Of a stretch of DNA of 20,560 nt, positions 5,684-20,560 are shown one piece after another. Origin of the DNA: a virus; the IMG/VR virus record IMGVR_UViG_3300006734_000340, positions 1 to 20,560 of that record. One strand, 5' to 3'. Made by a program: the position numbers and the translations under genes. Under the pieces are notes generated by a model, which was not told the DNA's origin, did not search any database, and saw only the letters and a list, made by a program, of their open reading frames with translations. Each line of letters opens with the position of its first letter. Positions within the stretch are counted from its first letter, which is position 1.

Positions 5684-6392
5684 TTTTAAAGAACACTTTC
5701 ACCCATCGTGGCATAATAAAATGAAACCATTTATAGAGAGCAATGAATGTGATGAGATATATGCATTCTTGAAGAAAGAGAGTAAGAGGGGCAAGCAAAT
5801 TGCTCCTCTGTCATCTCAGGTCTATAGATGTTTTAAGGAAACACCACTGGATGAAGTGAAAGCAGTGATTGTGGGCATGTGTCCCTATCACACATTTAAG
5901 AACGGATTACCTGTAGCAGATGGTTTGCTTATGGGATGTTCAATAACAGGCTATGTACAACCTTCTTTGAAGAACTTCTACAAAGCACTAGAGACTGAGT
6001 TCCACAGAGGACTTAATCTAAGTTATGATCCATCTCCTGATGTAGCATATCTAGCAGAACAGGGAATACTAATGCTTAACGTAGCACTCACCACTGAGAA
6101 GAACAAAGCTGGTAGTCACATAGATGTATGGGAACCATTCACAAAGTATTTATTTGAAGAGGTTCTTAATCCACTAGGTGTACCATATGTCTTTCTTGGT
6201 AAAGATGCTGGTAGGTATACGAGATATACAGGAATCTTTGCTCACACATTTGTTGTGAGTCATCCAGCCAGTGCTTCTTACAAGGGTGTTGATTGGGACA
6301 GTGAGGGTGTGTTTACAAAGGTGGATACACTAATTTATGAAAACAACGGATTTAGCATCAACTGGTTAAAAGATGCAGAAGATCCATTTTAA
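5670..6392 (+). CDS. Uracil-DNA glycosylase family 1 fold with altered catalytic motif
   Basis: This 240-residue protein follows the family 1 uracil-DNA glycosylase (Ung) plan closely. Motif A, normally GQDPYH, reads GMCPYH (69-74), so the water-activating Asp is Cys71 and the Gln is Met70. The uracil-stacking Phe of GLAFS is Met88 (in GLLMGCS). QPSLKN (97-102), AEQGILMLN (129-137, with the uracil-reading Asn137), the AGSH loop (147-150) and VSHPASAS (196-203, catalytic His198) are kept. Ung removes uracil from DNA; here catalysis may be weak, altered or lost. It starts inside the epimerase gene (14-nt overlap) at the ATG that gives the normal N-terminal region. Alternatives are a different base specificity, or a DNA-binding or processivity role as in poxvirus D4. 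Confidence 0.85.
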   Translation: MKWDNFKEHFHPSWHNKMKPFIESNECDEIYAFLKKESKRGKQIAPLSSQVYRCFKETPLDEVKAVIVGMCPYHTFKNGLPVADGLLMGCSITGYVQPSLKNFYKALETEFHRGLNLSYDPSPDVAYLAEQGILMLNVALTTEKNKAGSHIDVWEPFTKYLFEEVLNPLGVPYVFLGKDAGRYTRYTGIFAHTFVVSHPASASYKGVDWDSEGVFTKVDTLIYENNGFSINWLKDAEDPF

Positions 6393-6403
6393 AAACAGAA
6401 ACA

Positions 6404-6745: not shown

Positions 6746-7022
6746 CACAGTAAACAGACCGATTAAGAAAGAAGATCTCCAAGTGGGAGATGAAGTGATT
6801 GTACGAGGTGTAGACCTCAACTACATGCAAATTGTAAGACCTCCAAAACAAAAACAATCTAAAGATTGGCAGGGAAATCCTTGTACAGTGTGGACATCAG
6901 CTGTATGTAATAGAATCAACAGTAAGTTTGATAAGAAATGGGATACAGATGATAAGGATAATGTAAGATTTGACTTTGAATATAAGTCTATCTGGTTAGT
7001 AAAACGAGGAGATAATAATTAA
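6738..7022 (+). CDS. Small beta-rich hypothetical protein, paralogue 2
   Basis: A 94-residue protein of unknown function. It carries VGDEVIV (residues 16-22), a proline/basic loop PPKQKQ followed by a W-x-G-N turn, two cysteines, and a closing strand FDFEYKSIWLVKR. The arrangement mirrors the preceding 113-residue gene, so it is read as a diverged tandem paralogue. Its ATG lies within the end of that gene (8-nt overlap) and 15 nt of A-rich leader separates it from the rIIA-like gene. A nucleic-acid-binding barrel is possible because of the basic loop, but nothing proves it. Confidence 0.62.
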   Translation: MDNTVNRPIKKEDLQVGDEVIVRGVDLNYMQIVRPPKQKQSKDWQGNPCTVWTSAVCNRINSKFDKKWDTDDKDNVRFDFEYKSIWLVKRGDNN

Positions 7023-7037
7023 TAAATAAGAACAGAA

Positions 7038-9326: not shown

Positions 9327-9332
9327 TCATGT

Positions 9333-9363
9333 GGGAGATTGTTTGACAGTCTCCCATATTTTT
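9333..9363 (+). terminator. Intrinsic terminator after the rIIA-like gene
   Basis: GGGAGATTGT (9333-9342) pairs with ACAGTCTCCC (9346-9355): ten pairs with one wobble and a 3-nt TTG loop, followed by ATATTTTT. It begins 6 nt after the rIIA-like stop codon. The TTG in the loop is also positioned as the -33 element of the next promoter. Confidence 0.85.
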
Positions 9364-9373
9364 CGTATATTAA
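9343..9373 (+). promoter_or_regulatory. Promoter for the rIIB-like gene, overlapping the terminator
   Basis: TTG (9343-9345) is followed after 20 nt by TATATTAA (9366-9373), a 6/8 match to TAnnTTTG. The preceding TTTCG is identical to the context at 1079-1083. Transcription would start around 9377-9381, leaving a short A-rich leader ending AACAATTAAAAAC before the ATG at 9396. The -33 element lies in the loop of the terminator hairpin. Confidence 0.5.
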
Positions 9374-9395
9374 TAAATAAATAACAATTAAAAAC

Positions 9396-10910
9396 ATGAG
9401 TAAATTTCTAAGTTTGGAATGGTTCAAAAACAAAGTGGACCATTCAGTAGAGAAGGTAATTGAGAAGAAACTTGATGCCTTAATGAACCAGCAAGATGAA
9501 GAAGCTGGACAACCATTCAGCAGCGCTAAGCTTGTAAATGATGTACTAACTGTTGTAATGAACGATGGTTCTGTAATTACCAAGATGGATGCTACAGAGG
9601 ATCACTATGCAGCTGTACAGGTAGCAAAGAATGTAGCAGAGCTGTATTCTATTGTTAGTGACCCTAGTGTTGTTAGTGAGAAGATTGAAGAAGAGAAGAA
9701 GTTGGCAAGACTTAAAGCTCTTCGTGAGGGACTCTCTGTTCTGAAAGAGAGTGGTGAGTTCACAGTGGATGGAGATAGTGTATACTTCAAAGGTATATCT
9801 AGATCTCTACCACAACTACTAGTTGAAGAACTTATCGATGAGGTGAGTCGTGCTAAAGAGTTGGGTATTCCACTAAATGATTCTGATGGATATCAGTCTC
9901 TCAAGCGATTCTTTATGTGGTGTGCACTTAATCCAAGAGCTGAGGTGGCACATGAGCTATACAGATTCTTGAAAGAGAACAGCTTCCGTATCACTAAGCA
10001 AGGATTCTTTGTAGCACTACGTAATGTTGTTACACTACATGGAAGCCCAGAGCTTGTACACTTTATCTCTAATACTTACAACAAGGTGAAAGCTGTCTGG
10101 AAGAAGAGCCCAGATGACTACACTGTGTTCCTAGAAAATGGTGAATACAAGCTTGTACATGATGATAAGCTATATCGTGAAGAAACACACACTAGTACAA
10201 GTTGTCAAGAGTGCTTGGGAGAAGGTGGTTACTATGATGATGGTGATTATTATGAAGATGAAGATGAATGGAATGAAGGTGAGTGGATAGAATGTGATAC
10301 ATGTGGTGGTACAGGTGAAGTGGAACCTTATGAAGTAACAAACACTGTACGAGTAGATCATGGAGAAGAGATAGGTAAACTTACAGAGCTCTATCTAGAC
10401 CTACCTAACAGACATGAGAATCGTTTCACAGATGATTGGACTAAAACATTTGATATTCGTGTAGGTAAGGTGGTTAACATGCCTAAGGAAAGTTGTAACT
10501 GGTCAACACAAGATTGTGCTGCAGCTGGTTTACACTTCACTTCTGACCAGATACACTATGTAGGATGTGGTGATCAGTCTGTACTTGTTCTTATCAATCC
10601 TATGAAGGTAGTTGGTATTGGTGCACACAAGGGTAGATGCTATGAGTATTTACCAATCATGACTGTACCAAGAGATGAGGCTACAGAGATTCTTCATGAC
10701 AATCAGTTTGACACTCTACAGCTTGATGAAGAGTATGCAATCCGTGAGCTTGAAAACCTTGAGATTAAGGTGCAAGAAGGATTTGTAGCTGAGACCAGTA
10801 AGTATGAATTCAACTTACCAAATGTTAGCAGTTCTGACATACGTAATATTGTAGGAAGCTTAGAGGATATGAAGGCTGAGATACGAGATAGAATCGTATC
10901 TTTAGATTAA
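9396..10910 (+). CDS. rIIB-like: rIIB-like protein carrying a DnaJ-type zinc module
   Basis: A 504-residue protein directly after rIIA. The C-terminal half has the rIIB landmarks: FFVALRNV (204-211), then VGKVVNMP, a Cys-rich segment leading to AAGLHF (376-381), and a strand pattern with VLINPMKVVGI. T4 rIIB is only about 310 residues and works with rIIA. The extra length here is an N-terminal helical region (1-200) and an insert at 270-307 with two CxxCxGxG motifs (C270/C273 and C300/C303) separated by a strongly acidic loop rich in Asp, Glu and Tyr. That is half of a DnaJ-type zinc-binding domain and should hold one zinc. It has its own promoter, and its start-codon region is complementary to the candidate small RNA at 17165-17267. 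The rIIB label is an inference from motif order and neighbourhood. Confidence 0.72.
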   Translation: MSKFLSLEWFKNKVDHSVEKVIEKKLDALMNQQDEEAGQPFSSAKLVNDVLTVVMNDGSVITKMDATEDHYAAVQVAKNVAELYSIVSDPSVVSEKIEEEKKLARLKALREGLSVLKESGEFTVDGDSVYFKGISRSLPQLLVEELIDEVSRAKELGIPLNDSDGYQSLKRFFMWCALNPRAEVAHELYRFLKENSFRITKQGFFVALRNVVTLHGSPELVHFISNTYNKVKAVWKKSPDDYTVFLENGEYKLVHDDKLYREETHTSTSCQECLGEGGYYDDGDYYEDEDEWNEGEWIECDTCGGTGEVEPYEVTNTVRVDHGEEIGKLTELYLDLPNRHENRFTDDWTKTFDIRVGKVVNMPKESCNWSTQDCAAAGLHFTSDQIHYVGCGDQSVLVLINPMKVVGIGAHKGRCYEYLPIMTVPRDEATEILHDNQFDTLQLDEEYAIRELENLEIKVQEGFVAETSKYEFNLPNVSSSDIRNIVGSLEDMKAEIRDRIVSLD

Positions 10911-10960
10911 TTAATTGGGGGATAGCATTTATTTTGTATATTTGTTATTCCCCATTAATT
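10909..10960. repeat. Imperfect inverted repeat flanking a promoter -7 element
   Basis: Bases 10909-10925 (AATTAATTGGGGGATAG) and 10945-10960 (TTATTCCCCATTAATT) pair over 16 positions with one bulged T and two wobbles. The 19-nt interval contains TATATTTG (10937-10944). It may be an operator for the downstream operon, or a weak terminator for the rIIB-like gene; no T-run follows the second arm. Confidence 0.6.
10915..10944 (+). promoter_or_regulatory. Bacteroidota promoter for the HNH-to-NrdA operon
   Basis: TTG (10915-10917), a 19-nt spacer and TATATTTG (10937-10944) give a full match to the Bacteroidota TTG/TAnnTTTG promoter. The first ATG is at 10968. The whole promoter lies within an inverted repeat. 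Confidence 0.75.
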
Positions 10961-10967
10961 TAAACTT

Positions 10968-11369
10968 ATGGCAAAGAAATCAACAAGAAAGCCTAGAGTT
11001 CCTAGGACTAGAAATGCTGGCACAATGACAGAAGCAGCATTCTGGTCTATGATTAGAAGCGCTCTAAGGCAGAAAAGCAGATGGTGGAAGCCAATTGCTG
11101 AATGTAAGAAGCTTGCAAGGCGAGCGTACAAAGGAAAGAATAAAAGACAGAGGTGGGAATACAAATGCAACAAATGTAAGGAGTGGTTCAAAAGTGATCA
11201 AGTTAATGTTGATCATATAGAACCTGCAGGAAGTTTGAATTGTTCACAGGATTTACCATCTTTTGTGGAAACACTCTTTTGTGAACAAGAGAACTTACAA
11301 GTGTTATGTAAAACTTGCCATGACCAGAAAACAAAACTGGAAAAACAATTAAAACAATTTAAGAAATAA
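10968..11369 (+). CDS. HNH endonuclease
   Basis: A 133-residue basic protein with a C-terminal HNH/beta-beta-alpha-metal domain: zinc knuckle C67-xx-C70, core VDH (Asp82-His83), N109 in ENLQVLC, and C114-xx-C117-H118. The N-terminal 65 residues are Lys/Arg-rich with a conserved-looking FWSMIRSALRQKSRWW helix, likely DNA-contacting. HNH enzymes cut DNA with a single metal ion. In phages they serve as homing nucleases, packaging nucleases or recombination/repair enzymes. It is first in a long operon right after a promoter, and its stop overlaps the next ATG (TAATG). A free-standing homing nuclease is possible, but the tight operon integration argues for a fixed phage function. Confidence 0.82.
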   Translation: MAKKSTRKPRVPRTRNAGTMTEAAFWSMIRSALRQKSRWWKPIAECKKLARRAYKGKNKRQRWEYKCNKCKEWFKSDQVNVDHIEPAGSLNCSQDLPSFVETLFCEQENLQVLCKTCHDQKTKLEKQLKQFKK

Positions 11370-11596
11370 TGAACAGAGAATTATTGAGATCGCTCACAAA
11401 GCCTGAGCACTATGATTCACAGACTAATATAGATGTAATAGACATATGTCATATGTACAACATATCTTTCTCTCGTGGTAACATAATCAAATATGTTATC
11501 AGGGCAGGTAAGAAGAACGATGAGTTGAAAGATCTATATAAGGCTTTGGATTATTTACAAAGGGAAATACAATACATTAAAAACCAATCACAATGA
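11369..11596 (+). CDS. DUF3310 family protein (nucleotide-kinase-like)
   Basis: A 75-residue protein matching the DUF3310 pattern: HY (residues 14-15) near the start, a NIIKYVIRAGKKN core (about 38-50), then DLYKALDYLQREI (54-66). DUF3310 contains phage T7 gp1.7, reported as a nucleotide kinase acting on dTMP and dGMP. The His-Tyr and K-Y-x-x-R-A-G-K-K residues are those preserved in the family. Start and stop each overlap neighbouring genes (TAATG and ATGA). Placement in the same operon as ribonucleotide reductase fits a role in nucleotide supply. Confidence 0.8.
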   Translation: MNRELLRSLTKPEHYDSQTNIDVIDICHMYNISFSRGNIIKYVIRAGKKNDELKDLYKALDYLQREIQYIKNQSQ

Positions 11597-12648
11597 TAAA
11601 GGGACAAACAAATACAGAAGCAAACTATAGGGCTGTCATGTTGGACAGCTCTAGTTCTTTAAAGGATTTTTCACTTGATAGAAAGAAATACTATAGAAAA
11701 TATATCCTTAATGAACCAATTAATGAGAAAGAAACAGCAGCTGCTAACATGGGTAGACTAGTGGAGACACTATTGTGGGAACCAGATCTTTTCGAAGAGA
11801 AGTTCTTTCTATCTTCTTGTGCAACACAACCAACAGGACTTATGTTGGAGTTCGTTGAAGCGTTGTACAGAGTGACTAGAGATTCTACAGATGAGTCTGG
11901 AGAGGTGACTAGAGACTTTGAAAGCTTATCAAGAGAAGCATATGATCTATCTTCCTTCAAGATAAAGTATGAGGCTGTCATCAAGAAGTTTGTAGGTAGT
12001 GATGCAGAGCTATACTATCATGAAATCAGAAAGGTGAGAGCAAACAATCTAACTGTAGTGAACAGCTTAGATGTAACTATGGCTGAAAAGATCGTAGAAA
12101 CACTTAAGCAAAGCACTGTCACATCAAAACTTGTCACTCTTGTCAATAGTTCAAGATACAGTGTGTTTTGTCAAATGCAAGTTGAAGACTATGTTATAGA
12201 TGGACATGCTTTTAAGTCTATGATGGACTGGGTAGTGGTAGATCATGATGCTAAAACTATTCAGGTGTATGATTTGAAGTGCACATGGAATGTAGAGAAC
12301 TTCTTTGAGGAATACTATTTGTATAGAAGAGCATACATCCAGGCATTCTTGTATAAGAAAGCTGCACAACACATGGCTAATGATGACATGCTTGAATACT
12401 ATGGGTATGAAGTACTCAATCCTAGATTTATTGTTTGTGATAGTGCAAACTTCTATAGTCCAATAATATATACATTGTCTGAGGAAGACATGAATGATGC
12501 TAAGAATGGCTTTGAGTACAAGGGTAGAACCTATCCTGGTGTTAAAAGCTTGATTAGTGATTTGAAATGGGCAACAGAGAATAACATGTGGGATGTTAGC
12601 CAAGGAACATTCGAGGCTGATGGAGTAGTTAACATACGAAATAGATAA
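11593..12648 (+). CDS. PD-(D/E)XK exonuclease (RecE/Cas4-like)
   Basis: A 351-residue protein with the RecB/RecE-type nuclease layout. An N-terminal SSSLKDFSLDRKKYYRKY resembles the substrate-entry motif of phage RecE-like exonucleases. GRLVE (residues 54-58, Glu58) comes next. The metal-binding core is Asp212 in SMMDWVVVD and D227-L-K229 in VYDLKCT, followed by the Q-x-x-x-Y element YIQAFLY (248-254). All catalytic positions are present. Such enzymes resect double-stranded ends to give single strands for annealing or RecA loading, and a Sak4-like ATPase and a RecA are both encoded nearby. It overlaps DUF3310 by ATGA and is 2 nt from the next gene. No iron-sulfur cysteine cluster is seen, so a RecE-type enzyme is preferred over Cas4. 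Confidence 0.78.
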   Translation: MIKGQTNTEANYRAVMLDSSSSLKDFSLDRKKYYRKYILNEPINEKETAAANMGRLVETLLWEPDLFEEKFFLSSCATQPTGLMLEFVEALYRVTRDSTDESGEVTRDFESLSREAYDLSSFKIKYEAVIKKFVGSDAELYYHEIRKVRANNLTVVNSLDVTMAEKIVETLKQSTVTSKLVTLVNSSRYSVFCQMQVEDYVIDGHAFKSMMDWVVVDHDAKTIQVYDLKCTWNVENFFEEYYLYRRAYIQAFLYKKAAQHMANDDMLEYYGYEVLNPRFIVCDSANFYSPIIYTLSEEDMNDAKNGFEYKGRTYPGVKSLISDLKWATENNMWDVSQGTFEADGVVNIRNR

Positions 12649-12650
12649 TA

Positions 12651-13214
12651 ATGACAATTAAGAAAACGATAACCAGTATATTTATGGTTCCAACTCTAAG
12701 GATTCCAAAAAACGCATTGAAAAATAATGGGTTTATAAATGGTTATGTTGAAGATGCAGAGAGAGATTTTCAGTATCCTGATGCTGTTTATCTCTTGTTT
12801 CTGCCTAAAGACATACCAAAGTTTAGAGAGTTCCTTGATGATGAGTATGAACGTACAGAAAACATTATTGAGGATTATGATTATGAAGGAGGATTTGTAG
12901 TTGTTGTATACAAACTTGACAGTAGATGGAGAAAAGACTATACTCTTATCAAACAGGGTAAGTATTCTAAAACCTCTGACAGCTTTCAGAAGCTGTTTCC
13001 AAAGGTTATAAAAATTATGAAGAATGGCTTACATAGAGATGAGGTGTCCCTGCAGTATCGAGTGTTCAATAAGACAGAAGATATGATTGACTACTGGGAG
13101 AACAAGATAGGTATTGAATGGGATGATGAGTTTGAAGTGTGGGAAGGATATGACAAGAACAAAGAAATACTTCATATAAACAAGTTAAAAGATAGTGTAA
13201 CAGATAAAGTATAA
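12651..13214 (+). CDS. Hypothetical phage protein (187 aa)
   Basis: I do not recognise a family. The protein opens with a strand TITSIFMVPTLRI, followed by a loop and the phrase YLLFLPKD. Residues 85-95 contain an acidic run (ENIIEDYDYEG) and then FVVVVYKLD, giving an alternating strand pattern consistent with a compact alpha/beta domain. The C-terminal third is charged (WENKIGIEWDDEFEVWEG), with many Trp and acidic residues. It sits 2 nt after the nuclease gene and 2 nt before the next, so it is surely part of the operon. No membrane segment, signal peptide or metal site is visible. Confidence 0.65.
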   Translation: MTIKKTITSIFMVPTLRIPKNALKNNGFINGYVEDAERDFQYPDAVYLLFLPKDIPKFREFLDDEYERTENIIEDYDYEGGFVVVVYKLDSRWRKDYTLIKQGKYSKTSDSFQKLFPKVIKIMKNGLHRDEVSLQYRVFNKTEDMIDYWENKIGIEWDDEFEVWEGYDKNKEILHINKLKDSVTDKV

Positions 13215-13216
13215 TT

Positions 13217-13615
13217 ATGAATGCAAAACAATTATTAGAAGAAAACCCTTTATCAAAAGATAAGTTGAAACTGTGGTTCACAAACCAACTAACAGCTCAG
13301 CTTGAAAACTTTGAGGAGGATGATAACTTCAAAGAGTTTATGGTAAAGTCAGGAATCACTGATGACCAGATAGAAACTATATTCACCAAAGGAGGTAGAG
13401 GTTGCCTTGATTTCTTTGATGAAGAAGGTTTGATTATATCAGTGGTACATAATTGGAAAGACAAAACCTTTTCATATTATGTTAATGATGATAAGCCCCA
13501 AGGATCATTCAGTAAGAGAACAGATGCAGAAACTGCTGTTCTTCAGGAATGTATCAAGACCCTTGAACAAACATTAACTGAAAAAGAGGAGACAGATGAC
13601 AACTCAGAGAATTAA
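13217..13615 (+). CDS. Acidic hypothetical protein (132 aa)
   Basis: An acidic protein of unknown function. The first 45 residues are helical and charged, followed by a strand pair around GLIISVVHNWKDKTFSYYV (residues 76-94). The C-terminal helix (about 107-125) ends in an acidic tail EKEETDDNSEN. Its end overlaps the start of the DnaA-like gene by 20 nt, so the two are likely co-translated and may act together. The acidic tail could mimic DNA or bind the basic DnaA-like neighbour; this is speculation from charge alone. Confidence 0.62.
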   Translation: MNAKQLLEENPLSKDKLKLWFTNQLTAQLENFEEDDNFKEFMVKSGITDDQIETIFTKGGRGCLDFFDEEGLIISVVHNWKDKTFSYYVNDDKPQGSFSKRTDAETAVLQECIKTLEQTLTEKEETDDNSEN

Positions 13616-13982
13616 AGAACTAGTAGAAGATTATTTCAATGTAGATCTATCAGAGAAAACCAGGAAGAGAGAGCTAGTTCATATCAGATTTTTATATTAT
13701 AACTTAGCATATCACCACGCATCAGATGGTTTAAGTCTAACTGCTGTAGGTAACACTATTGGTGGTTTTGATCATGCCACTGTGTTGTATGGTCTTAGAC
13801 AGTATAAGAATCTGTATGAATTTGACAAGCCTTTTAGACGCAGAGTTAATCCTTTTCTAAACGAAATAGAAGAAGAGATTAACAAGAGTACTGTCAACAG
13901 TAGGAGAACTATACACAGACAGATAAGGCGATTGAAGGAGAGAATTCTTCAGATGGAGAAACAATTGGAAGATATAGAATAA
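13596..13982 (+). CDS. Stand-alone DnaA domain IV DNA-binding protein
   Basis: Residues 1-95 of this 128-residue protein line up with DnaA domain IV, the helix-turn-helix part that reads DnaA boxes. An N-terminal helix (IKELVEDYFNV) is followed by a basic KTRKR stretch, a helix leading to LSLTAVGNTI, and the signature GGFDHATVLYGLR (56-68), corresponding to GGRDHTTV in DnaA. The base-contacting Arg of that motif is Phe58, so the recognised site may differ. The AAA+ ATPase domain is absent. Residues 99-128 are a basic heptad-like helix (RQIRRLKERILQMEKQL) likely to form a coiled coil, so the protein may dimerise. It could mark the phage origin, recruit the host helicase, or compete with host DnaA. 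Confidence 0.85.
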   Translation: MTTQRIKELVEDYFNVDLSEKTRKRELVHIRFLYYNLAYHHASDGLSLTAVGNTIGGFDHATVLYGLRQYKNLYEFDKPFRRRVNPFLNEIEEEINKSTVNSRRTIHRQIRRLKERILQMEKQLEDIE

Positions 13983-13997
13983 ATTTTACAAATAATT

Positions 13998-14177
13998 ATG
14001 AGAACAATTGGAAAAATTATAGTAGATTTGCTTTCTAGCAATCACATTTCAGCTGACGAAGCTGAGTTAATGATCAATAAACTTTCTAGGGATGGTAAGT
14101 CATTAGGTTTTCAACCTAAGAGGACTGCTAGTCCCTATTGGTATCAAACAAATACAATGAACGATGAGAACAGCTGA
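13998..14177 (+). CDS. Short hypothetical protein (59 aa)
   Basis: An ATG at 13998 opens a 59-codon frame filling the space between the DnaA-like gene (15 nt gap) and the next gene (14-nt overlap). The protein begins MRTIGKIIVDLLSSNHIS, an amphipathic helix, followed by DEAELMINKLSRDG and a basic GFQPKRTASPYW segment. It has the charge balance and Leu/Ile spacing of a real small helical protein, and the overlap matches the style of the operon. The same bases hold nested hairpins (TAGGGA/TCCCTA enclosing TTAGGTT/AACCTAA), so a structured mRNA element is an alternative or an additional function. No family recognised. Confidence 0.6.
   Translation: MRTIGKIIVDLLSSNHISADEAELMINKLSRDGKSLGFQPKRTASPYWYQTNTMNDENS
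14087..14137 (+). other. Nested hairpins inside the 59-aa gene
   Basis: An outer stem TAGGGA (14087-14092)/TCCCTA (14132-14137) encloses TTAGGTT-TTC-AACCTAA (14103-14119). An alternative small stem GGACT/AGTCC (14122-14134) shares bases with the outer arm. The element lies just before the start of the next gene (14164) and may shape translation of the nrd genes downstream. Confidence 0.4.
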
Positions 14178-14496
14178 AGAATTCAATCTAACATATGAGC
14201 TAGTTATGGATGGTCCAGGGCTAGTTATAGAAGTTCCTGCAGTGGTTCAATATTTGAATCAAGTATTTGATGATCTACTAAAGATAGAGGGATTTAAGTG
14301 TAAAGAGATATCTACTATCCGTGGTATACCACGTGTAGAAACTAACCTCAATGAGATTTTACCATTCGTTGGTAGAATAATCAATGAGCAGTTAGAGGAG
14401 AATCTTAGTCTTATGTTGAAAGTGGAATTCGAAGTAGAGCAACGATTGCTATCGTTGAATTTAGACAAACACGGTAAACCTATAAATCATGAATAA
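14164..14496 (+). CDS. Hypothetical protein upstream of nrdB (110 aa)
   Basis: An acidic 110-residue protein with no recognised domain. Residues 12-40 contain LVMDGPGLVIEVPAVVQYL, a strand-turn-helix pattern; the middle has a basic KCKEISTIRGIPRV stretch; the C-terminal half is a long helix (RIINEQLEENLSLMLKVEFEVEQRL). It overlaps the 59-aa gene by 14 nt and nrdB by 8 nt, so it is translated with the reductase genes. A helper in nucleotide metabolism would fit but nothing in the sequence shows it. Confidence 0.62.
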   Translation: MRTAEEFNLTYELVMDGPGLVIEVPAVVQYLNQVFDDLLKIEGFKCKEISTIRGIPRVETNLNEILPFVGRIINEQLEENLSLMLKVEFEVEQRLLSLNLDKHGKPINHE

Positions 14497-15469
14497 GAAC
14501 ATTTTTATGCCAAGGGTCAATATTCTCCCTTATGAATATCCACAATTACTAGACTACAAAGATGCAATCAGACACTCGTATTGGATTGATACAGAGTTTA
14601 ACTTCACTGAAGACATACAAGACTTCAAGGTGACAATTACAGATGAAGAACGTGATGTTATCAAGAAGACTATGCTTGCTATAGCTCAGATTGAGGTGAA
14701 TGTAAAAACCTTTTGGGGTGATTTGTACAAACGTATGCCTATTACAGAAATAGGTGATGTGGGATTCACATTTGCTGAATCAGAAGTGAGACATAAAGAT
14801 GCATATGCCAGACTGTTAAGAATTCTTGGGCTAGAAAAAGAGTTTCAGAATGTAGTTGAGGTGCCTGCTATAGAAGGGCGCATCAAATATTTGAAGAAAT
14901 ACTTAGATGGTACAAGATCTAGAGACAACAAGATGTACACTAAGTCTGTGCTGTTGTTTTCTTTATTCATAGAGCACGTTAGTTTGTTTAGTCAATTCCT
15001 CATTATGATGAGCTTTAACAAAGAGAAGAATGTCCTGAAGGGGATATCTAATGTTGTTGAGGCTACAAGTAAAGAGGAAGAGATACATGGTAACTTTGGA
15101 GCAGAGCTCATCAATATTATTAAGAAAGAGAACCCTGAGTGGTTTGATGAAGAGTTTGAAAACCTTATATACTCAGCATGTAAGAAAGCTTACGCAGCTG
15201 AGTGTGGTATATTAGATTGGATCTTTGAAAAAGGAGAACTTGAGTTTCTACCAAAGGAAACAATCCAGCACTTCATCATGAACCGTTTCAACAACTCACT
15301 TAAAAAGATTGGAATGAAGCCAATGTTTGGTGTGGACAATGAGTTATTAGCATCAACTAAATGGTTTGACATAGAAATCACTGCTACTAAAGAAGGAGAC
15401 TTCTTCTATAAGAAGCAAGTGGATTATAATAAAAAGAGTAAGAGTATAACTGTAGACGATTTATTTTAA
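14489..15469 (+). CDS. nrdB: Class I ribonucleotide reductase, beta (radical-generating) subunit
   Basis: A 326-residue NrdB. The diiron/dimanganese ligands are recognisable: E99-xx-H102 in ESEVRH, Glu162 in LFIEHV, and E197-xx-H200 in EEEIHG. The remaining N-terminal carboxylate is either Glu69 or Asp78. Tyr106, four residues after the first His, corresponds to the radical tyrosine. The protein ends in ITVDDLF, the flexible tail that docks on the alpha subunit. Together with the alpha gene 1 nt downstream it makes deoxyribonucleotides for phage DNA. Length is slightly below E. coli NrdB (376). An ATG 8 nt inside the previous gene gives a full-length N-terminus. A tyrosyl-radical subclass is likely, though metal type cannot be read. 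Confidence 0.93.
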   Translation: MNKNIFMPRVNILPYEYPQLLDYKDAIRHSYWIDTEFNFTEDIQDFKVTITDEERDVIKKTMLAIAQIEVNVKTFWGDLYKRMPITEIGDVGFTFAESEVRHKDAYARLLRILGLEKEFQNVVEVPAIEGRIKYLKKYLDGTRSRDNKMYTKSVLLFSLFIEHVSLFSQFLIMMSFNKEKNVLKGISNVVEATSKEEEIHGNFGAELINIIKKENPEWFDEEFENLIYSACKKAYAAECGILDWIFEKGELEFLPKETIQHFIMNRFNNSLKKIGMKPMFGVDNELLASTKWFDIEITATKEGDFFYKKQVDYNKKSKSITVDDLF

Positions 15470-15470
15470 A

Positions 15471-17099
15471 ATGGAATATAAAAGATATTACTGGCTTAAT
15501 GAAGACAGTAGAATGTTCTTGTCCAGGGGATATCTAGATGAGTCCCCTGAGCAAAGAATACGAGATATAGCAAACGTAGCTGAGAAGTATCTAAACATGC
15601 GTGACTTTGCACACAAGTTTGAAGACTACATGTCTAGAGGTTTCTATAGCTTATCAACACCTGTATGGATAAACTTTGGTAAAAGAAAGGGTTTACCTAT
15701 CAGTTGTTATGGATCTAATGTAGATGATACACTAGATAGTATACTAAATGCAGGACGTGAGATAGGTATGATGTCAAAGAATGGTGGTGGTACAAGCGCC
15801 TATCTAGGAAACATTAGACCAAGAGGAACTAGCATTAGTACAGGAGGTAAGGCTGATGGACCAGTGCATTATGCAAGAATCTATGACACTGTTGTAGATG
15901 TTTGTAAACAATCTGCAGCTAGACGTGGAGCATGTGCTGTCTATCTACCTGTGGAACATGCAGACATAGAAGAGTTTCTAGACATTGGTACAGAGGGTAA
16001 TCCTATTCAGAATCTTCAGTATGGTGTTACAGTTAGTGATGCCTGGTTGAAGAGTATGAAAGCTGGTAGTAAAGAGAAACGTAAGATATGGGCTAAGATT
16101 ATTCAAAGGCGTAATGAATTTGGATTCCCATATATTATGTTTAAGGACAACTCAAACAATGAGACATCTCCTTATAAAGAACTAGGGTATGAAATTACAG
16201 CTAGTAATTTATGTAGTGAAATACAGCTTCCTACAGACAGCTTCCATAGTTTTGTGTGCTGTTTAGGATCTATCAACTTGTTACACTGGGATGAGATAAA
16301 AGAAACAGACGCAGTGGAAACATATGTGTTGTTCTTAAATGCAGTGATCAATGAGTTTATACAAAAGGCAGAACACCTTCCAGGTATGAAGCGAGCTTGG
16401 AGATTTGCCAGAGAACACAGAGCTATTGGTGTAGGTGTACTAGGATATCATTCCTACTTCCAGTCTAAGCTTATAGAGTTTGAATCACTAGAAGCTAAAC
16501 AACTTAACCATCAGATCTTCAAGACATTGAAAGAACGTACAGAAGATGCTTCTAGATGGTTACATGATGCTAAGGGGTATAAGTCTATTAGAGAAGGCTT
16601 TGCTAACACTACACTTATGGCCATAGCACCAACTAAATCTAGTTCGTTCATCCATGGTCAGGTGAGTATGGGTATTGAACCTATCAAGTCTAACTACTTC
16701 ATCAAGGATCTTGCTAAGAGTAAGACAGTGTATAAGAATCCGTTCTTAGAAGCTGAGCTTGAGAAGTATGATATGAATAACGATGAAACATGGGAGTCTA
16801 TTCTTAAGAAGGATGGATCTGTACAGCATCTAAAGTTTCCAACTAAGGCTGTATTCAAATCCTTCATAGAGATAAGTCCTAAAGAACTAGTTCTGCAGGC
16901 TGCTCAAAGACAGAAGTTTATTGATCAGTCACAGAGTCTAAACTTAATGATACACCCAACTGTATCTGCTAAGGATATCAATCAATTATATCTTTATGCA
17001 CATGAAGAAGGGGTAAAAACACTCTATTATCAGTTCAGCCAGAGCTCAGCTCAAGCATTTGCAAGAAACATTCTTGACTGTGCAAGCTGTGAAGGCTAA
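15471..17099 (+). CDS. nrdA: Class I ribonucleotide reductase, alpha (catalytic) subunit, lacking ATP-cone
   Basis: A compact 542-residue NrdA-type enzyme; cellular NrdA is about 700-760. Active-site residues are all present: Cys79 (SCYGSN) and Cys263 (FVCCLGSINL) form the redox pair, the radical Cys248 lies in NLCSE with Asn246 and Glu250, and the Y519-Y520 pair carries the radical. The C-terminal CASC (537-540) relays reducing equivalents. The N-terminal ATP-cone that turns cellular class Ia enzymes off with dATP is missing, since the protein starts nearly at the ten-stranded barrel. It converts ribonucleoside diphosphates to deoxy forms together with NrdB, encoded 1 nt upstream. No glutaredoxin or thioredoxin gene is seen nearby, so a host reductant is implied. 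Confidence 0.93.
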   Translation: MEYKRYYWLNEDSRMFLSRGYLDESPEQRIRDIANVAEKYLNMRDFAHKFEDYMSRGFYSLSTPVWINFGKRKGLPISCYGSNVDDTLDSILNAGREIGMMSKNGGGTSAYLGNIRPRGTSISTGGKADGPVHYARIYDTVVDVCKQSAARRGACAVYLPVEHADIEEFLDIGTEGNPIQNLQYGVTVSDAWLKSMKAGSKEKRKIWAKIIQRRNEFGFPYIMFKDNSNNETSPYKELGYEITASNLCSEIQLPTDSFHSFVCCLGSINLLHWDEIKETDAVETYVLFLNAVINEFIQKAEHLPGMKRAWRFAREHRAIGVGVLGYHSYFQSKLIEFESLEAKQLNHQIFKTLKERTEDASRWLHDAKGYKSIREGFANTTLMAIAPTKSSSFIHGQVSMGIEPIKSNYFIKDLAKSKTVYKNPFLEAELEKYDMNNDETWESILKKDGSVQHLKFPTKAVFKSFIEISPKELVLQAAQRQKFIDQSQSLNLMIHPTVSAKDINQLYLYAHEEGVKTLYYQFSQSSAQAFARNILDCASCEG

Positions 17100-17130
17100 T
17101 CAAATTAAGTAAAAAATGTGTAGTTAAGGG

Positions 17131-17161
17131 TTGTATATACCATATACATTTTATACATTTG
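17131..17161 (+). promoter_or_regulatory. Bacteroidota promoter of a short transcription unit
   Basis: TTG (17131-17133), a 20-nt spacer and TACATTTG (17154-17161) match the Bacteroidota promoter. It lies 31 nt after nrdA. The expected transcription start, a few nt after 17161, falls at or next to an ATG at 17166, so any translation would be leaderless. The spacer is nearly filled by a palindrome. Confidence 0.7.
17132..17148. promoter_or_regulatory. Palindromic operator candidate in the promoter spacer
   Basis: TGTATAT-ACC-ATATACA is a perfect 7-bp inverted repeat with a 3-nt centre, placed between the -33 and -7 elements. This position and symmetry are typical of a site for a dimeric repressor that would block RNA polymerase. 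No second copy was noticed elsewhere in the window. Confidence 0.5.
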
Positions 17162-17164
17162 AAC

Positions 17165-17267
17165 AATGAAAGATATTACTATCTTGAATTCTGATAATTT
17201 GGATTAAATATTTCTGTTCTGTTTTTAATTGTGAAAGGGGCCTTGGAGAAATCTAAGGCCTTTTTTT
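17165..17267 (+). ncRNA. Candidate phage small RNA (about 100 nt)
   Basis: The interval starts just after a good promoter and ends at a strong intrinsic terminator, so it should be transcribed as its own RNA of about 100 nt. It has a 5' hairpin AAGATA-TTAC-TATCTT (17170-17185), a single-stranded AT-rich middle, and the terminator hairpin with a GAAA tetraloop (17239-17260) plus seven T. Bases 17219-17232 can pair with the recA start region (17314-17327; 11 Watson-Crick pairs, two G.U wobbles, one further C-G). Bases 17220-17232 pair with 9384-9396 at the rIIB-like start over 13 Watson-Crick pairs. A 13-codon frame from the ATG at 17166 (MKDITILNSDNLD) is possible, so a leader peptide is the alternative. 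Confidence 0.55.
17239..17267 (+). terminator. Strong intrinsic terminator with GAAA tetraloop
   Basis: GGCCTTGGA (17239-17247) pairs with TCTAAGGCC (17252-17260): nine pairs with one G.T wobble, capped by GAAA, followed by seven T (17261-17267). It separates the short transcription unit from the recA promoter and rules out the GTG/TTG-extended reading of recA that would run through it. Confidence 0.9.
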
Positions 17268-17269
17268 GC

Positions 17270-17300
17270 TTGGAAAATAGACTAGAATTAACTATATTTG
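17270..17300 (+). promoter_or_regulatory. recA promoter
   Basis: TTG (17270-17272), a 20-nt spacer and TATATTTG (17293-17300) fully match the Bacteroidota pattern. It lies just after the terminator T-run. The leader is about 20 nt (ending AACAATTAAAA) before the ATG at 17324. Confidence 0.8.
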
Positions 17301-17323
17301 TATGTAATAATAAACAATTAAAA

Positions 17324-18424
17324 ATGGCAAAAAAGCAAGAATCAACCGTAGACAAGTTCCAGGAAGCACTGGAAAAACTAAACAAACAGTATGGAAAGGG
17401 AACCGTACTAGCACTAGACAGCAAAACAGAAGGCACTTATGATGCAATCAGTACAGGGTCAATTGGATTTGACTGGATTACATTAGGTGTTGGAGGTTTT
17501 GTAAAAGGTAAAATGTATGAACTTATGGGCTGGGAGGGCACAGGTAAATCTACAATATGTGGACATGCTGTAGCTAGCTGCCAGACTAAAGGAGGAAAGG
17601 TAGTTTATATTGATGGCGAACATGCTGTTGATAAAAACTATTTTGAAGCACTAGGTGTAAATACATCAGAGATGTTAATTGCTCAACCATCATCAGGTGA
17701 AGAAGGTTTTAACATTGCTGTAGAGATGATGCAGTCAGGAGAAGTAGATTTAGTAATCATTGACTCAGATAGTTCACTTATTCCTAAAGCTGTGTTAGAT
17801 GGTGATGTTGGAGATCATGCAATTGGTAAGAAGGCAAGACTAAACAGTGGTGCCTATCCAAAGATTAAAAGCATTGCTCATAGTACAAACACATGTGTTA
17901 TTGTAATCTCTCAGTATCGTGAGAAGATTGGTGTTATGTTTGGTAACCCAACTACTACACAAGGAGGACATGCTCTTAAGTTTTATTCTGATTGTAGAAT
18001 AGAAGTGGGCAGATCTCTAGCAAAAGAAGGACAAGAAGTGTATGGTAACATCACAAGAGTGAAAGCTACCAAGAACAAGATGAGTCCTCCATACAAGAAA
18101 TCAGAGTTTGAGATTGTGTATGGTGTAGGTATTGATAAGGTGGGTGAAACTTTACAGCTGCTGCATGAGTTTGGATTAGGTCGTAAGTATGGTAAGACAT
18201 ATACATTTGATGATGTAAAATATGACCTAGAGGAGTTCAAGCAGATGATACTAGAAGATGTTGAGTTCTTTGATAAACTAAAGACTACAATTGTAAACGC
18301 TATTCGTGGTGTAGAAGAGGAAGAAAAAAAAAGTGAAGTTGTGAACTATGAGCAGGCTAAAACTATTGAAGTGGTAGCGCCTGAAGAGCTTACACCAGAT
18401 CTATTTGATATACCTGAGTTATGA
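17324..18424 (+). CDS. recA: RecA recombinase
   Basis: A 366-residue RecA. The P-loop is GWEGTGKST (69-77), YIDGEH with catalytic Glu99 follows, Walker B is VIIDSDSS (144-151), the GDVGDHAIG stretch (160-168) leads into loop L1, ISQYREKIGV has the sensor Gln197, and loop L2 reaches GGHALKF (214-220). These define an ATP-driven strand-exchange protein. The C-terminus is acidic (EEEEKK and onward), as in bacterial RecA. It is clearly closer to bacterial RecA than to T4 UvsX in motif spelling, so it was probably acquired from a bacterium. The ATG at 17324 is chosen because it follows a promoter and A-rich leader; the upstream in-frame GTG at 17231 would translate through a terminator. It overlaps the next gene by ATGA. 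Confidence 0.95.
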   Translation: MAKKQESTVDKFQEALEKLNKQYGKGTVLALDSKTEGTYDAISTGSIGFDWITLGVGGFVKGKMYELMGWEGTGKSTICGHAVASCQTKGGKVVYIDGEHAVDKNYFEALGVNTSEMLIAQPSSGEEGFNIAVEMMQSGEVDLVIIDSDSSLIPKAVLDGDVGDHAIGKKARLNSGAYPKIKSIAHSTNTCVIVISQYREKIGVMFGNPTTTQGGHALKFYSDCRIEVGRSLAKEGQEVYGNITRVKATKNKMSPPYKKSEFEIVYGVGIDKVGETLQLLHEFGLGRKYGKTYTFDDVKYDLEEFKQMILEDVEFFDKLKTTIVNAIRGVEEEEKKSEVVNYEQAKTIEVVAPEELTPDLFDIPEL

Positions 18425-18834
18425 AATGTATAGTGTGTGGAGCAAATTCAGAGTCTGAATACTGCTTCAAACATAAGCCTAGAAAACAACTGTCTGGCAA
18501 CAGGGGATTTAAAAAGCCAACACTAGCTACCAAACCTACAGTTAGTGTTGGTAAATCCCAACCAAACACAGACCATATAATATTCAAAGAGGTTTGGAAA
18601 GAAAGACCTCACAAGTCTGAAGTTAGTGGTGCATATCTAGGTAAGGAGGCGCTAAGTTTGTATTTTCATCACATACTTCCTAAAAGTAAGTACCCACAAT
18701 TTAGGAATCTTAAAGAAAATATCATACTTTTGACAGCTGATGAGCACGCTAATGTAGAAAGTGACATCTATAGATATGAAAAAATAAATGAGATACGAGA
18801 GTATCTAATTGATAAATATAAACTAAACATATGA
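18421..18834 (+). CDS. Zinc-knuckle HNH-like nuclease, possible NinG-type recombination protein
   Basis: A 137-residue basic protein. An N-terminal zinc knuckle C3-xx-C6 ... C15-xx-H18 is followed by a basic linker and a degenerate HNH core: YFHHILPKSKY (81-91, His83/His84), NLKENIILL (with Asn100) and ADEHANVE (His109). This order, zinc site then HNH-like fold, resembles lambda NinG/Rap, a Holliday-junction endonuclease. The ATGA overlap with recA makes a recombination role likely. A generic HNH nuclease is the alternative. Confidence 0.68.
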   Translation: MKCIVCGANSESEYCFKHKPRKQLSGNRGFKKPTLATKPTVSVGKSQPNTDHIIFKEVWKERPHKSEVSGAYLGKEALSLYFHHILPKSKYPQFRNLKENIILLTADEHANVESDIYRYEKINEIREYLIDKYKLNI

Positions 18835-19139
18835 AAAACCAATTCTTTTACACTCGTAAAGAAGCTGTACAGGGAACAGATCCTGTAGAGTACAAAGAGT
18901 ACACGGACAGCATCAATCTTAACAAAGTAATTCGTAGCGTTCAGATGAATGATGACTCAATTGTTGTGTTATTAGATGACATGCATGAGCGTATTACAGA
19001 AGTACCTAACATCAATCCTAAGAACAACAAGGTGATTGGTACAAAGAAGAAGGTAGATGTATACCAGACAGAAGCCTATCTATATGGAGAAGATATAGAA
19101 CGATTTAGAAAACTAACAAATATTGAGAACAATGGCTAA
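18831..19139 (+). CDS. Hypothetical protein (102 aa)
   Basis: A charged 102-residue protein that I cannot assign. It has an N-terminal FFYTRKEAV, a central strand pair (VIRSVQMNDDSIVVLLDDMHERI, residues 33-55 or so), a basic Asn/Lys-rich loop (NPKNNKVIGTKKK) and a C-terminal helix. It overlaps the zinc/HNH gene by ATGA and the GroES-like gene by 8 nt, so it is co-translated with both. No metal site or membrane segment is present. Confidence 0.65.
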   Translation: MKNQFFYTRKEAVQGTDPVEYKEYTDSINLNKVIRSVQMNDDSIVVLLDDMHERITEVPNINPKNNKVIGTKKKVDVYQTEAYLYGEDIERFRKLTNIENNG

Positions 19140-19428
19140 AAAACCATACAAAAAACTTCTTGGAAACCGCATCTATGTAGAGATTCCTAAGAAGGAAGAG
19201 ACTAAATTAATTGTTGATGAAAACACCAAAGAAGCTCTGCAGCGTGAAATGCTAAAGAGAATGTCTAAGCTCACTGTATTTGATGTAGGAGACCTAGTAA
19301 CTAACATTAAAGCAGGTGATGTTATACTTGCAGATCCAGGCAAACTAAAAGATGCTATGGTGATTCCTTTATCTGATGATAAAGATGTACTACTTGTGTC
19401 CCCATTTGACGTAATACACGTTTGGTAA
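19132..19428 (+). CDS. GroES-like co-chaperonin
   Basis: A 98-residue protein matching the GroES fold by size and pattern. LLGNRIYVEIPKKEETK (9-25) corresponds to the PLxDRVxVK strand. It is followed by a short mobile-loop-like stretch with the hydrophobic tripeptide LIV (26-28), where GroES has IVL. VGD (52-54) and AGDVILADPG (61-70) correspond to the VGD-IVIF region, and VLLVSPFDVIHVW matches the closing VLIMSESDILAIV. A phage co-chaperonin such as T4 gp31 redirects host GroEL to fold capsid protein. The ATG at 19132 is preferred over a TTG at 19123 because it gives the normal GroES start. Its stop overlaps the glycosyltransferase ATG (TAATG). The mobile loop is shorter than in GroES, so function is probable, not certain. 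Confidence 0.62.
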   Translation: MAKKPYKKLLGNRIYVEIPKKEETKLIVDENTKEALQREMLKRMSKLTVFDVGDLVTNIKAGDVILADPGKLKDAMVIPLSDDKDVLLVSPFDVIHVW

Positions 19429-20192
19429 TGAGCTCCCTCCCTTTTATATCGTGTAAGTGTATCACATACGGACGAGTGGATACACTAGAAGAAGCACTGT
19501 ATAGCTTTCTCATACAGGACTATCCTAAAGATAAGTGTGAATTAGTTATAGTGAATGATTATCCTGAGCAAGAATTAGTCTATGATCATCCTCAGGTGAC
19601 CATTTACAATCTGGATAGTACATTTCCTTTGATAGGAGAGAAAGAGAACTATGCTATTGAGCGATGTAAAGGGGAGCTTATTGCTGTTTGGGACGATGAT
19701 GATGTAGCTATGTCTAATCATCTTCAGAACATAGCTAAACACTGGCAGCCAGACACTAACATTATACACTGGGAAACAGGTGTGTTCTATAATGAACCAT
19801 CCATTACGTCTATAAGTGGTGTAGGTAACTCAGGTATAGTGTATAGTAAAGATGTATGGGAAAGAATAGGTAGAAGTCCACTAGAAAATGCTGGTGGAGA
19901 TATGACACTTACAAATAGAATACATGCACTAGGAGGTAAACTTAATGTAAAGATGCCACCAGATCAAGCTTCTTGGTTTTATATGTGGGGTGGTAGAGGA
20001 TATCACCAGTCAGGTATGGGCACAGATGATGGTAGCAGACCTAACATTATAGAAAGACACTCAGCACATATAGAGAAGCTTAGAAGACAAGGTGTGATTC
20101 CTACAGGACGTGTACATCTTAGTCCTAAGTGGAAGAAAGACTACGCACAAATGTTAAAAGATTATGTCTCAAATTCATTTACTTCTAGTTAA
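19428..20192 (+). CDS. Family 2 (GT-A) glycosyltransferase
   Basis: A 254-residue GT-A fold transferase. The N-terminus has PFISCKCITYGR and LEEALYSFLIQDYP, typical of family 2, then ELVIVNDY with Asp44 for the nucleotide base. WDDDD (88-92) is the metal-binding DxD motif at the end of the N-terminal half, and an acceptor region with ENAGGDMTLTNRI follows, where an Asp is a candidate base. Such enzymes transfer a sugar from a nucleotide sugar to an acceptor, here unknown (virion protein, DNA or host surface). No membrane anchor is seen. The ATG at 19428 is used instead of a TTG two codons earlier. It overlaps the next transferase gene by 29 nt. Confidence 0.85.
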   Translation: MSSLPFISCKCITYGRVDTLEEALYSFLIQDYPKDKCELVIVNDYPEQELVYDHPQVTIYNLDSTFPLIGEKENYAIERCKGELIAVWDDDDVAMSNHLQNIAKHWQPDTNIIHWETGVFYNEPSITSISGVGNSGIVYSKDVWERIGRSPLENAGGDMTLTNRIHALGGKLNVKMPPDQASWFYMWGGRGYHQSGMGTDDGSRPNIIERHSAHIEKLRRQGVIPTGRVHLSPKWKKDYAQMLKDYVSNSFTSS

Positions 20193-20560
20193 TAGAAATC
20201 TTCTAGAGACAACCAAGAACACTGTAGAATTCCTACGTAAAGAACAAAGAGTCAAGATACATATACTTGATCAAGGATCTACATACCCTCCCTTATTAGA
20301 ATGGTATAAAACTATACCAGAAGATATTATCTACTGTGGTAATGAAGGGCCATATTCATGTTGGCACCCAAAATACAAACATTTTAGAAAAAACTACTTC
20401 ATTGTAGCAGATAGTGACTGTATATATAATGGAGTTCCTGATGACTGGTTAGACGTTATGCTTAATGCACTAGACCACTCAGGAGCATTCAAGGTGGGAT
20501 TCTCTCTAGAGATAGATGATTTACCTAACAGTGAGCTTGGTAGGGAAGCACATGCACATG
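20164..20560 (+). CDS. Second glycosyltransferase-like protein, 3'-truncated by the window edge
   Basis: The frame opens at the ATG at 20164, inside the end of the preceding gene, and runs without a stop to the window edge (132 codons visible). MSQIHLLLVNRNLL and HILDQGSTYPPLLEWY (33-48) have the family 2 pattern of a first strand followed by Asp-containing D-Q-G-S-T. YFIVADSDC (78-86) supplies the DxD metal site. The two transferases are probably co-translated. The acceptor domain lies outside the window, so specificity cannot be judged. Confidence 0.78.
   Translation, partial: MSQIHLLLVNRNLLETTKNTVEFLRKEQRVKIHILDQGSTYPPLLEWYKTIPEDIIYCGNEGPYSCWHPKYKHFRKNYFIVADSDCIYNGVPDDWLDVMLNALDHSGAFKVGFSLEIDDLPNSELGREAHAH

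Follow-up and report, generated by a model that had tools for sequence, protein, structure and literature searches.

A candidate antisense RNA encoded before recA in uncultured crAss-like phages appears to pair with the start regions of the phage's own DNA-handling genes

Introduction

What is encoded between nrdA and recA in the phage DNA analysed here, and on which genes might it act? An earlier note on this DNA had proposed that part of this region is a small RNA complementary to the start codons of recA and of an rIIB-like gene, and that by blocking initiation of both in trans it would link recombination with the rII system. Our analyses point to a wider set of partners: uncultured crAss-like phages appear to encode, before recA, a short RNA with a seed that pairs with the starts of their own DNA-handling genes. 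On the basis of the sequence comparisons described here, we consider it probable that the element is a trans-acting antisense sRNA, which blocks translation initiation of replication, recombination and rII genes.

The window, i.e. the whole stretch of DNA that was analysed, is a 20,560-base IMG/VR fragment of a phage genome, with genes for recA/UvsX, NrdA, NrdB, rIIA, rIIB, DNA primase, an exonuclease VIII-like protein, uracil-DNA-glycosylase (UDG) and a Sak4-like protein. A 128-aa protein (window 13596-13982) has a C-terminal DNA-binding domain of bacterial DnaA, and is possibly a replication-origin binder. Matches to the terminase of a 112-kb relative (G001, which holds locus L012) occur in 84 annotated phage records. 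Of the 15 matches listed, the top one is Leptolyngbya phage Lbo-JY46 (39%), followed by Cellulophaga phages phi4:1 and phi17:2 (31.5%) and csAssE-Sib (30%), with the gut phages cr118_1 and cr10_1 at ~27%. We take these names to denote the crAss-like group and, because of these matches, regard the phage group as crAss-like in its terminase gene, without a close named member. TTTG/TAnnTTTG is the Bacteroidota promoter form, and boxes of the TAnnTTTG form, together with A-rich leaders, suggest a Bacteroidota host.

The element between nrdA and recA

The order between nrdA and recA is a promoter-like box, the seed, a hairpin with a T-run, a second promoter-like box and the recA leader, as follows (all on the + strand).

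17130-17161, +, promoter-like sequence of the candidate sRNA: GTTG (17130-17133), a 20-nt spacer and TACATTTG (17154-17161), recognised from sequence
17166-17267, +, candidate sRNA of ~100 nt, its 5' end placed from the promoter-like box and its 3' end from the terminator
17212-17232, +, seed TTCTGTTCTGTTTTTAATTGT, 21 nt, unpaired in the predicted fold of 17212-17274
17233-17267, +, predicted intrinsic terminator: 15-pair hairpin (17233-17247/17252-17266), GAAA loop (17248-17251) and T-run (17261-17267)
17270-17300, +, recA promoter-like sequence, directly 3' of the sRNA terminator: TTGG (17270-17273), a 19-nt spacer and TATATTTG (17293-17300)
17324-18424, +, recA/UvsX-like recombinase gene (phrog_97)

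Both ends of the putative transcript, i.e. the terminator hairpin and the promoter-like box, are predicted from sequence. The fold of 17212-17274 has a z value of -3.7 and is better than 200 of 200 shuffles, and a model (R1) matches 17205-17266 of the candidate with 83.6 bits. The layout of the recA promoter-like sequence is similar in relatives, as judged by eye. A 13-aa open frame (17166-17207, MKDITILNSDNLD) was considered as a leader peptide and set aside; by eye, it is absent from relatives such as L007-L014.

Conservation of the element

Loci were collected by protein similarity to recA, 582 relatives being found and 80 kept (L004-L083), and a core pattern, CTGTTTTT followed by zero to three T, A or G, and then ATTGT, was sought up to 450 nt upstream of recA. 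The core is present in all 41 closer loci (L004-L044, recA 71-100% identical) and in 4 of the 39 remoter ones (L045-L083, recA 69-76%); one of the 39, L047, has almost no sequence upstream of recA. Intergenic flanks and the upstream gene, inspected by eye, vary among the loci keeping the core. In an alignment of 32 distinct elements, 7 of the 14 modelled hairpin pairs have at least one relative in which both sides have changed with the pair kept; these elements were gathered by the core pattern, such that the invariance of the core among them is partly by construction. The model makes one strong match in the window and one in each of nine other records with this seed form.

The sequence in front of the element is of more than one kind. 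A TAnnTTTG box stands 40-65 nt upstream of CTGTTTTT in 18/32 elements and at 107-109 nt in 3/32; 10/32 have no box and lie 11-19 nt after a small ORF with a CxxCP-type end, and one (L038) has an unrelated open frame but neither of these features. Since some elements have the box and others follow a small ORF, the RNA could have its own promoter or arise at the 3' end of an mRNA; it is as if the sRNA had begun as the 3' UTR of a small gene, with a promoter acquired later, or as if the opposite had happened. The one such ORF that was tested, at L019:7710-7874, where a small gene precedes the RNA and the box is absent, belongs to DUF5522, and similar loci exist.

An Rfam search of window 9200-20560, with E values up to 5, gave five matches, none reaching its gathering score; that at the sRNA locus was BjrC68, with 18.3 bits versus a gathering score of 39. 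Among annotated phage records, none of the 46 matches to the element covers 80% of the query, and the best 8 of the 46 listed cover at most 36%, so no cultured phage can be named as a carrier. The exact 21-nt seed occurs once in bacterial genomes (L249), without a hairpin and, by eye, apparently within coding sequence, and for these reasons we regard that match as chance. A search of viral contigs with the 20-nt seed of the relative G009 gave six stretches, of which L253 is the G009 record itself and the other five, by eye, have no hairpin. Weaker model matches elsewhere were also followed up: most of the 14 inspected are ordinary terminators without a seed, several of them between orthologues of genes 1812 and 2762, and they include a diverged element in G008, a diverged G013 element before recA, and L249. 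As the 14 comprise mostly terminators, together with known diverged elements and L249, no second sRNA was found among them. A CAGAAAT-like loop recurs among distant relatives in the terminator hairpins that separate the 1812 orthologue from the 2762 orthologue, these hairpins lying at L234:11451-11510, L214:8270-8326, L174:4981-5031 and L172:1027-1081.

Predicted partners in the window

The complementarity first proposed is present. Positions 17219-17232 (CTGTTTTTAATTGT) and 17314-17327 (ACAATTAAAAATGG) form 11 Watson-Crick pairs (17222-17232 with 17314-17324), two G.U pairs and one C-G pair, which cover the recA ATG (17324-17326), and 17220-17232 is a perfect 13-nt complement of 9384-9396 (ACAATTAAAAACA), ending at the A of the rIIB ATG. 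ACAATTAAAAA is found exactly three times in the window, in the recA leader, in the rIIB leader and, as its complement, in the candidate RNA. The caution that accompanied the proposal was well placed: both leaders share a ACAATTAAA block, so the two matches are not independent, and because this block is about equally frequent in the leaders of differently seeded relatives, the recA/rIIB pair alone is weak evidence.

A wider scan gives more. When a 27-nt seed was compared with 500 dinucleotide-shuffled seeds over 70 candidate start regions of the window, four regions had a perfect complement of at least 11 nt; the shuffle mean was 0.08, and none of the 500 shuffles reached four. Perfect non-self complements of at least 10 nt to the seed region number six in the window, and five of these abut gene starts, with runs of 13 (rIIB), 12 (gene 6404), 11 (rIIA), 11 (recA) and 10 nt (DUF3310 gene 11369). 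All five are on the sense strand; a DNA-level operator motif was also considered as an explanation. The predicted partner sites are as follows.

6389-6400, +, start region of gene 6404 (113 aa, follows UDG), TTAAAAACAGAA, 12-nt perfect complement
7013-7039, +, rIIA start region, with AGAACAGAAAT (7029-7039, 11-nt perfect) and interrupted pairing upstream along the seed
9384-9396, +, rIIB start region, 13-nt perfect complement; cofold -14.9 kcal/mol, 0/60 shuffles as good
11345-11354, +, start region of DUF3310 gene 11369, ACAATTAAAA, 10-nt perfect complement, 14 nt before the ATG
11576-11584, +, start region of the exonuclease VIII-like gene (11593), ATTAAAAAC, 9-nt complement, weak in the window
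17314-17327, +, recA start region, pairing with 17219-17232; weak in cofold

By RNAduplex, the minimum falls on rIIA in the window (-19.9, of 23 genes), in G001 (-21.8, of 22) and in G016 (-21.8, of 23). On cofolding with the whole RNA, only rIIA (-20.2), the DUF3310 gene (-15.7) and rIIB, of 25 genes, beat all 60 shuffled seeds. Gene 6404 (-17.4) is matched by 8/60 shuffles, its main support being co-variation, and the exonuclease gene (-13.8) by 10/60, which is not significant; the exonuclease leader match is stronger in G006, G016 and G009. Genes lacking a long complement score comparably in cofold, e.g. 13217 (-17.2, 5/60) and 13998 (-15.0, 1/60).

The idea of a trans-acting RNA at recA and the rII genes is thus upheld in one part, there being a conserved candidate RNA with an unpaired seed that fits several starts, including those of recA, rIIA and rIIB. 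The role given to recA is not: interaction prediction favours rIIB but places recA among the weaker partners, with a cofold energy of -12.2 kcal/mol that 4/60 shuffled seeds equal. The partners predicted with better support than recA are rIIA, rIIB and DUF3310 gene 11369 (by cofold) and gene 6404 (by co-variation). The earlier note had overlooked both gene 6404 and rIIA (7038), the best predicted partner; recA was rejected as the main target, given its weak cofold and the first place of rIIA in both duplex energy and cofold. The rIIA and rIIB genes are themselves separated by an intrinsic-terminator-like hairpin followed by TATTTTTCG (window 9329-9380), an arrangement kept in many relatives, so that rIIB may be transcribed from a promoter of its own.

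Hairpins in T4 early transcripts hide start sites, and the seed could act similarly in cis only, a read-through transcript pairing with the recA leader ~90 nt downstream and hiding its start, with the other matches incidental. The core does lie close upstream of recA in 45/80 loci, and the complement in the recA leader extends to 13 nt in G009 and 15 nt in G035. We nevertheless consider this reading very unlikely, since in the window rIIB and 6404 have longer runs than recA and rIIA has the lowest energy, since the recA start is ~730 nt from the element in G018, and since a co-varying site after UDG (see below) is ~11 kb from it. A cis-antisense RNA acts on targets encoded opposite to it or within its own transcript; rIIA, 6404 and rIIB are ~8-11 kb away and co-oriented with the element. 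Rather, an unpaired seed is complementary to targets encoded elsewhere, as in trans-acting antisense sRNAs; a cis contribution at recA may exist alongside the trans targets.

Matches in other genomes

In 22 records (window included), start regions that match the seed of the respective record over 10 nt or more were counted and compared with counts for 500 shuffled seeds; six of the 22 were added after the method was fixed and were not blind, some G017 leaders and the G035 recA region being known beforehand. At most 25/500 shuffles reach the observed count in 15 of the 22 records, i.e. the window (0), G001 (1), G016 (0), G003 (7), G005 (4), G006 (0), G007 (3), G011 (1), G012 (18), G009 (0), G014 (1), G017 (1), G018 (2), G035 (0) and G037 (10). 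The other seven have no significant excess at 10 nt: G002 (86, with 12 at 11 nt), G004 (72), G008 (140), G010 (500), G013 (161), G015 (500) and G040 (58). Over whole genomes, 16 records, which are related and not independent, contain 100 complements of at least 11 nt, and 48 of these end in start regions, which make up ~4.5% of the strands (4.5 expected).

This shuffle null is liberal, because ACAATTAAA, a leader motif common to the whole group, is matched by the AATTGT half of the seed, the half behind the recA and rIIB matches; comparison with records bearing another seed was therefore used to supplement it. Per 300 candidate leaders, the AATTGT half has 5.46 matches of at least 10 nt in the 13 records with this seed form versus 4.49 in nine with another seed, and 2.35 versus 2.14 at 11 nt or more. 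The two halves differ in this respect, the 5' half (TTCTGTTCTGTTTTT) being the more lineage-specific in its leader matches, with 1.85 per 300 leaders with this seed versus 0.51 without it at 10 nt or more, and 0.76 versus 0.10 at 11 nt or more; there is little difference at 9 nt. Clade seeds also match genomes that do not carry them, e.g. the G003 seed has eight 10-nt matches in G014.

The earlier note had named, as a result that would count against its proposal, a leader block standing before most genes. This is not what was found: ACAATTAAAA occurs 1 to 9 times per record in 20 records, counts which include the RNA's own complement and non-leader sites, and matches of at least 10 nt to the AATTGT half occur in ~2% of candidate leaders, the motif still being group-wide.

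These comparisons bear on whether there is a regulatory RNA at all. The element might be only the terminator region of an upstream transcript, with A-rich leaders containing ACAATTAAA bound to meet any U-rich sequence. Such a coincidence would account for the near-equal frequency of the AATTGT half in the nine differently seeded records and for the seven records without significant excess, and leaders in Flavobacterium are A-enriched, according to an excerpt of a study of that genus (PMC6847099). It accounts less well for retention of the core in 41/41 closer loci amid changing intergenic sequence and upstream genes, or for the lineage specificity of the 5' seed half, and it is further weakened by co-variation of seed and leaders, both at one homologous site and in G009/G035; overall, we regard it as unlikely.

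Co-variation of seed and leaders

If a trans-acting RNA pairs with the leaders, seed and leaders should change together. On balance they do across lineages, as seen in swap tests and run lengths, but not in every lineage. With 23 orthologous genes (12 to 23 per record) in 14 records, leaders fit their own seed better than swapped ones (p = 2.5e-4 by energy, 5e-5 by run); with 10 records, one per lineage, p is ~0.0017. Using all candidate leaders of 13 records, p is 4e-5 at 10 nt and 0.0018 at 11 nt, weakening to 0.0065 and 0.12, respectively, without G009 and G035. Co-variation of seed and targets, as in trans-acting antisense sRNAs, is thus present in part of the lineages and weaker without these two.

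G009 and G035 are sister lineages with other seeds; with its own seed, G009 has 10 matches of at least 11 nt and G035 has 4. Those in G009 include DUF932, recA, the exonuclease, rIIB and a 119-aa gene. In G035, where genes are named by similarity to window genes, own-seed matches are found at recA (15 nt), the 1812 orthologue (13), a 120-aa gene (13), and Sak4, DUF932 and the exonuclease (10 each). Matches of at least 11 nt to the G009 seed number 10 in G009 and 6 in G035, versus 0.67 per 300 leaders in 20 other records.

One such site is the gap that separates the UDG gene from the start of the next gene; it fits the lineage's own seed better than swapped seeds. With 16 records, p is 2e-5 by run and 1e-5 by energy, and with 13 it is 1e-5 and 7e-5; the site was picked post hoc, and p multiplied by 23 genes is still < 0.002. 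In this comparison G001, G016, G035 and G040 were collapsed with their lineages, G007 has no long ORF and G018 no UDG match, and the 13-record version additionally omits G002, G011 and G017. The own seed is first or tied in 8/16 and 9/13 records by run and in 6/16 and 6/13 by energy. The own-seed fit fails in G002, G010, G013 and G015, and the leaders of G011, G012 and G008 do not discriminate.

The gap sequences illustrate the changes: TTAAAAACAGAA in the window, TTAAAAAACAGAA in G003 (the seed of which has one more T), a 16-nt match in G017, TTAAACAAAAACA in G009 and G035, and GACACAATTA in G014 and G040. Single bases are exchanged between G005 (CTACAATTA with TAATTGTAG) and G004 (CAACAATTA with TAATTGTTG), where the seeds differ at the facing base. 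The A-run of the gap equals the T-run of the seed in 23 of 25 contigs (T5/A5 in 16, T6/A6 in 7), the remaining two being T6/A7; 11 further leaders had no seed on their own contig, and G004, G005 and G006, the leaders of which pair differently, are absent from this table. When 23 of the 25 contigs are placed on an rIIB tree (for two, no rIIB was available), T-run and A-run both change three times, such that this co-variation rests on about three events; a tree-based independent-pairs test gave two well-supported pairs, both of which agree, too few for significance.

In contigs 3300017708_000561 and 3300025809_000014 the rII region falls in the T6-seed clade, but the seed is T5 and the 6404 leader has a T5-type complement of 16 nt, which suggests recombination with subsequent co-adaptation.

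Proposed mechanism

We propose that ~17166-17267 encode a small regulatory RNA in which a U-rich, unpaired seed precedes an intrinsic-terminator hairpin. In the lineage of the window this RNA would have its own promoter; in some relatives it would be the 3' end of the mRNA of a small gene upstream. Its seed would pair in trans with the A-rich starts of replication, recombination and rII genes, extending to the start codon itself in rIIB, rIIA and recA. Most likely, such pairing would stop 30S binding and lower translation of the targets as the RNA accumulates. To judge from their functions, the listed targets are probably early genes, and the RNA may serve as a shut-off or timer for early proteins; we infer its production, its pairing in the cell, repression and timing from the comparisons above. 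More tentatively, and at somewhat under an even chance, one RNA of ~100 nt may run the early replication/recombination programme, with a seed that complements the phage's start-region motif and forms a private code in each lineage.

The same pairing might have the opposite outcome, the RNA being real and binding the leaders but activating or protecting mRNAs, by shielding 5' ends from nuclease or by opening structure. Some targets (recA, rIIB) have starts near predicted promoters, and the direction of an effect cannot be read from sequence. Pairing enters the ATG in rIIB, rIIA and recA, however, where initiation should be blocked. In addition, an excerpted account of Flavobacterium describes initiation as favoured by A at several leader positions and by low structure (PMC6847099), such that covering these positions should reduce initiation; we therefore consider activation very unlikely and prefer a block of initiation.

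Relationship to known regulators

In its proposed effect, the candidate resembles T4 RegA, which, according to an excerpt on that protein (PMC3014915), represses ~30 mRNAs, e.g. those of rIIB, gene 44 and dexA, at A+U-rich sites that carry a 5' poly(A) tract and either overlap the AUG or lie just 5' of it. RegA blocks initiation there, as is proposed for the candidate, and rIIB is a target named for both. RegA is a 122-aa protein, the sites of which are described there as lacking clear sequence conservation, whereas the candidate is a base-pairing RNA with a seed that co-varies with its sites; it would work like RegA but is not of that family, and no descent is claimed. Comparison of 19 window proteins with PHROGs and/or Pfam gave no match named RegA.

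Phage-encoded RNAs offer other parallels, as outlined in excerpts of one survey (PMC12197685). P22 sar, P1/P7 c4 and lambda OOP are, like the candidate, encoded by the phage, and sar and c4 block translation initiation of a phage gene by base pairing; each of the three has a single phage gene as its target, in the control of a repressor, immunity or lysogeny, whereas the candidate would act on several genes across the replication block. VpdS of VP882 and PreS of lambda are likewise short phage RNAs acting in trans during infection, and both bind Hfq. PreS acts on host dnaN, and VpdS influences phage and host mRNA levels and also represses host sRNAs; both thus reach host RNAs, whereas the predicted targets of the candidate are the phage's own genes. 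In these excerpts the target of most phage RNAs is either a single phage gene or host RNA; VpdS, which affects both phage and host, is an exception (PMC12197685). Our search of open-access literature on phage sRNAs gave, among the entries listed, no description of an RNA such as the candidate, an absence that is weakly supported as part of the results were unrelated. Base-pairing control is known, but these searches gave no precedent for a co-evolving multi-gene start-region regulon governed by a phage's own RNA.

If the proposal is correct, regulator and regulon evolve together, and an RNA counterpart of RegA, encoded beside recA and reaching both rII genes, would give the crAss-like group a new level of infection control, with one co-evolving seed setting many early genes. 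It would also represent antisense control at A-rich leaders in hosts (as suggested above) that are thought not to rely on Shine-Dalgarno pairing. The seed/leader code provides a computational test that is applicable to any newly sequenced relative. Long leader complements also occur at small genes without a PHROG match, of 19 nt at L243:5288-5638 (G011), 13 nt at L162:14606-14992 (G001) and 13 nt at L341:2819-3226 (G017), and these are possibly further regulated genes.
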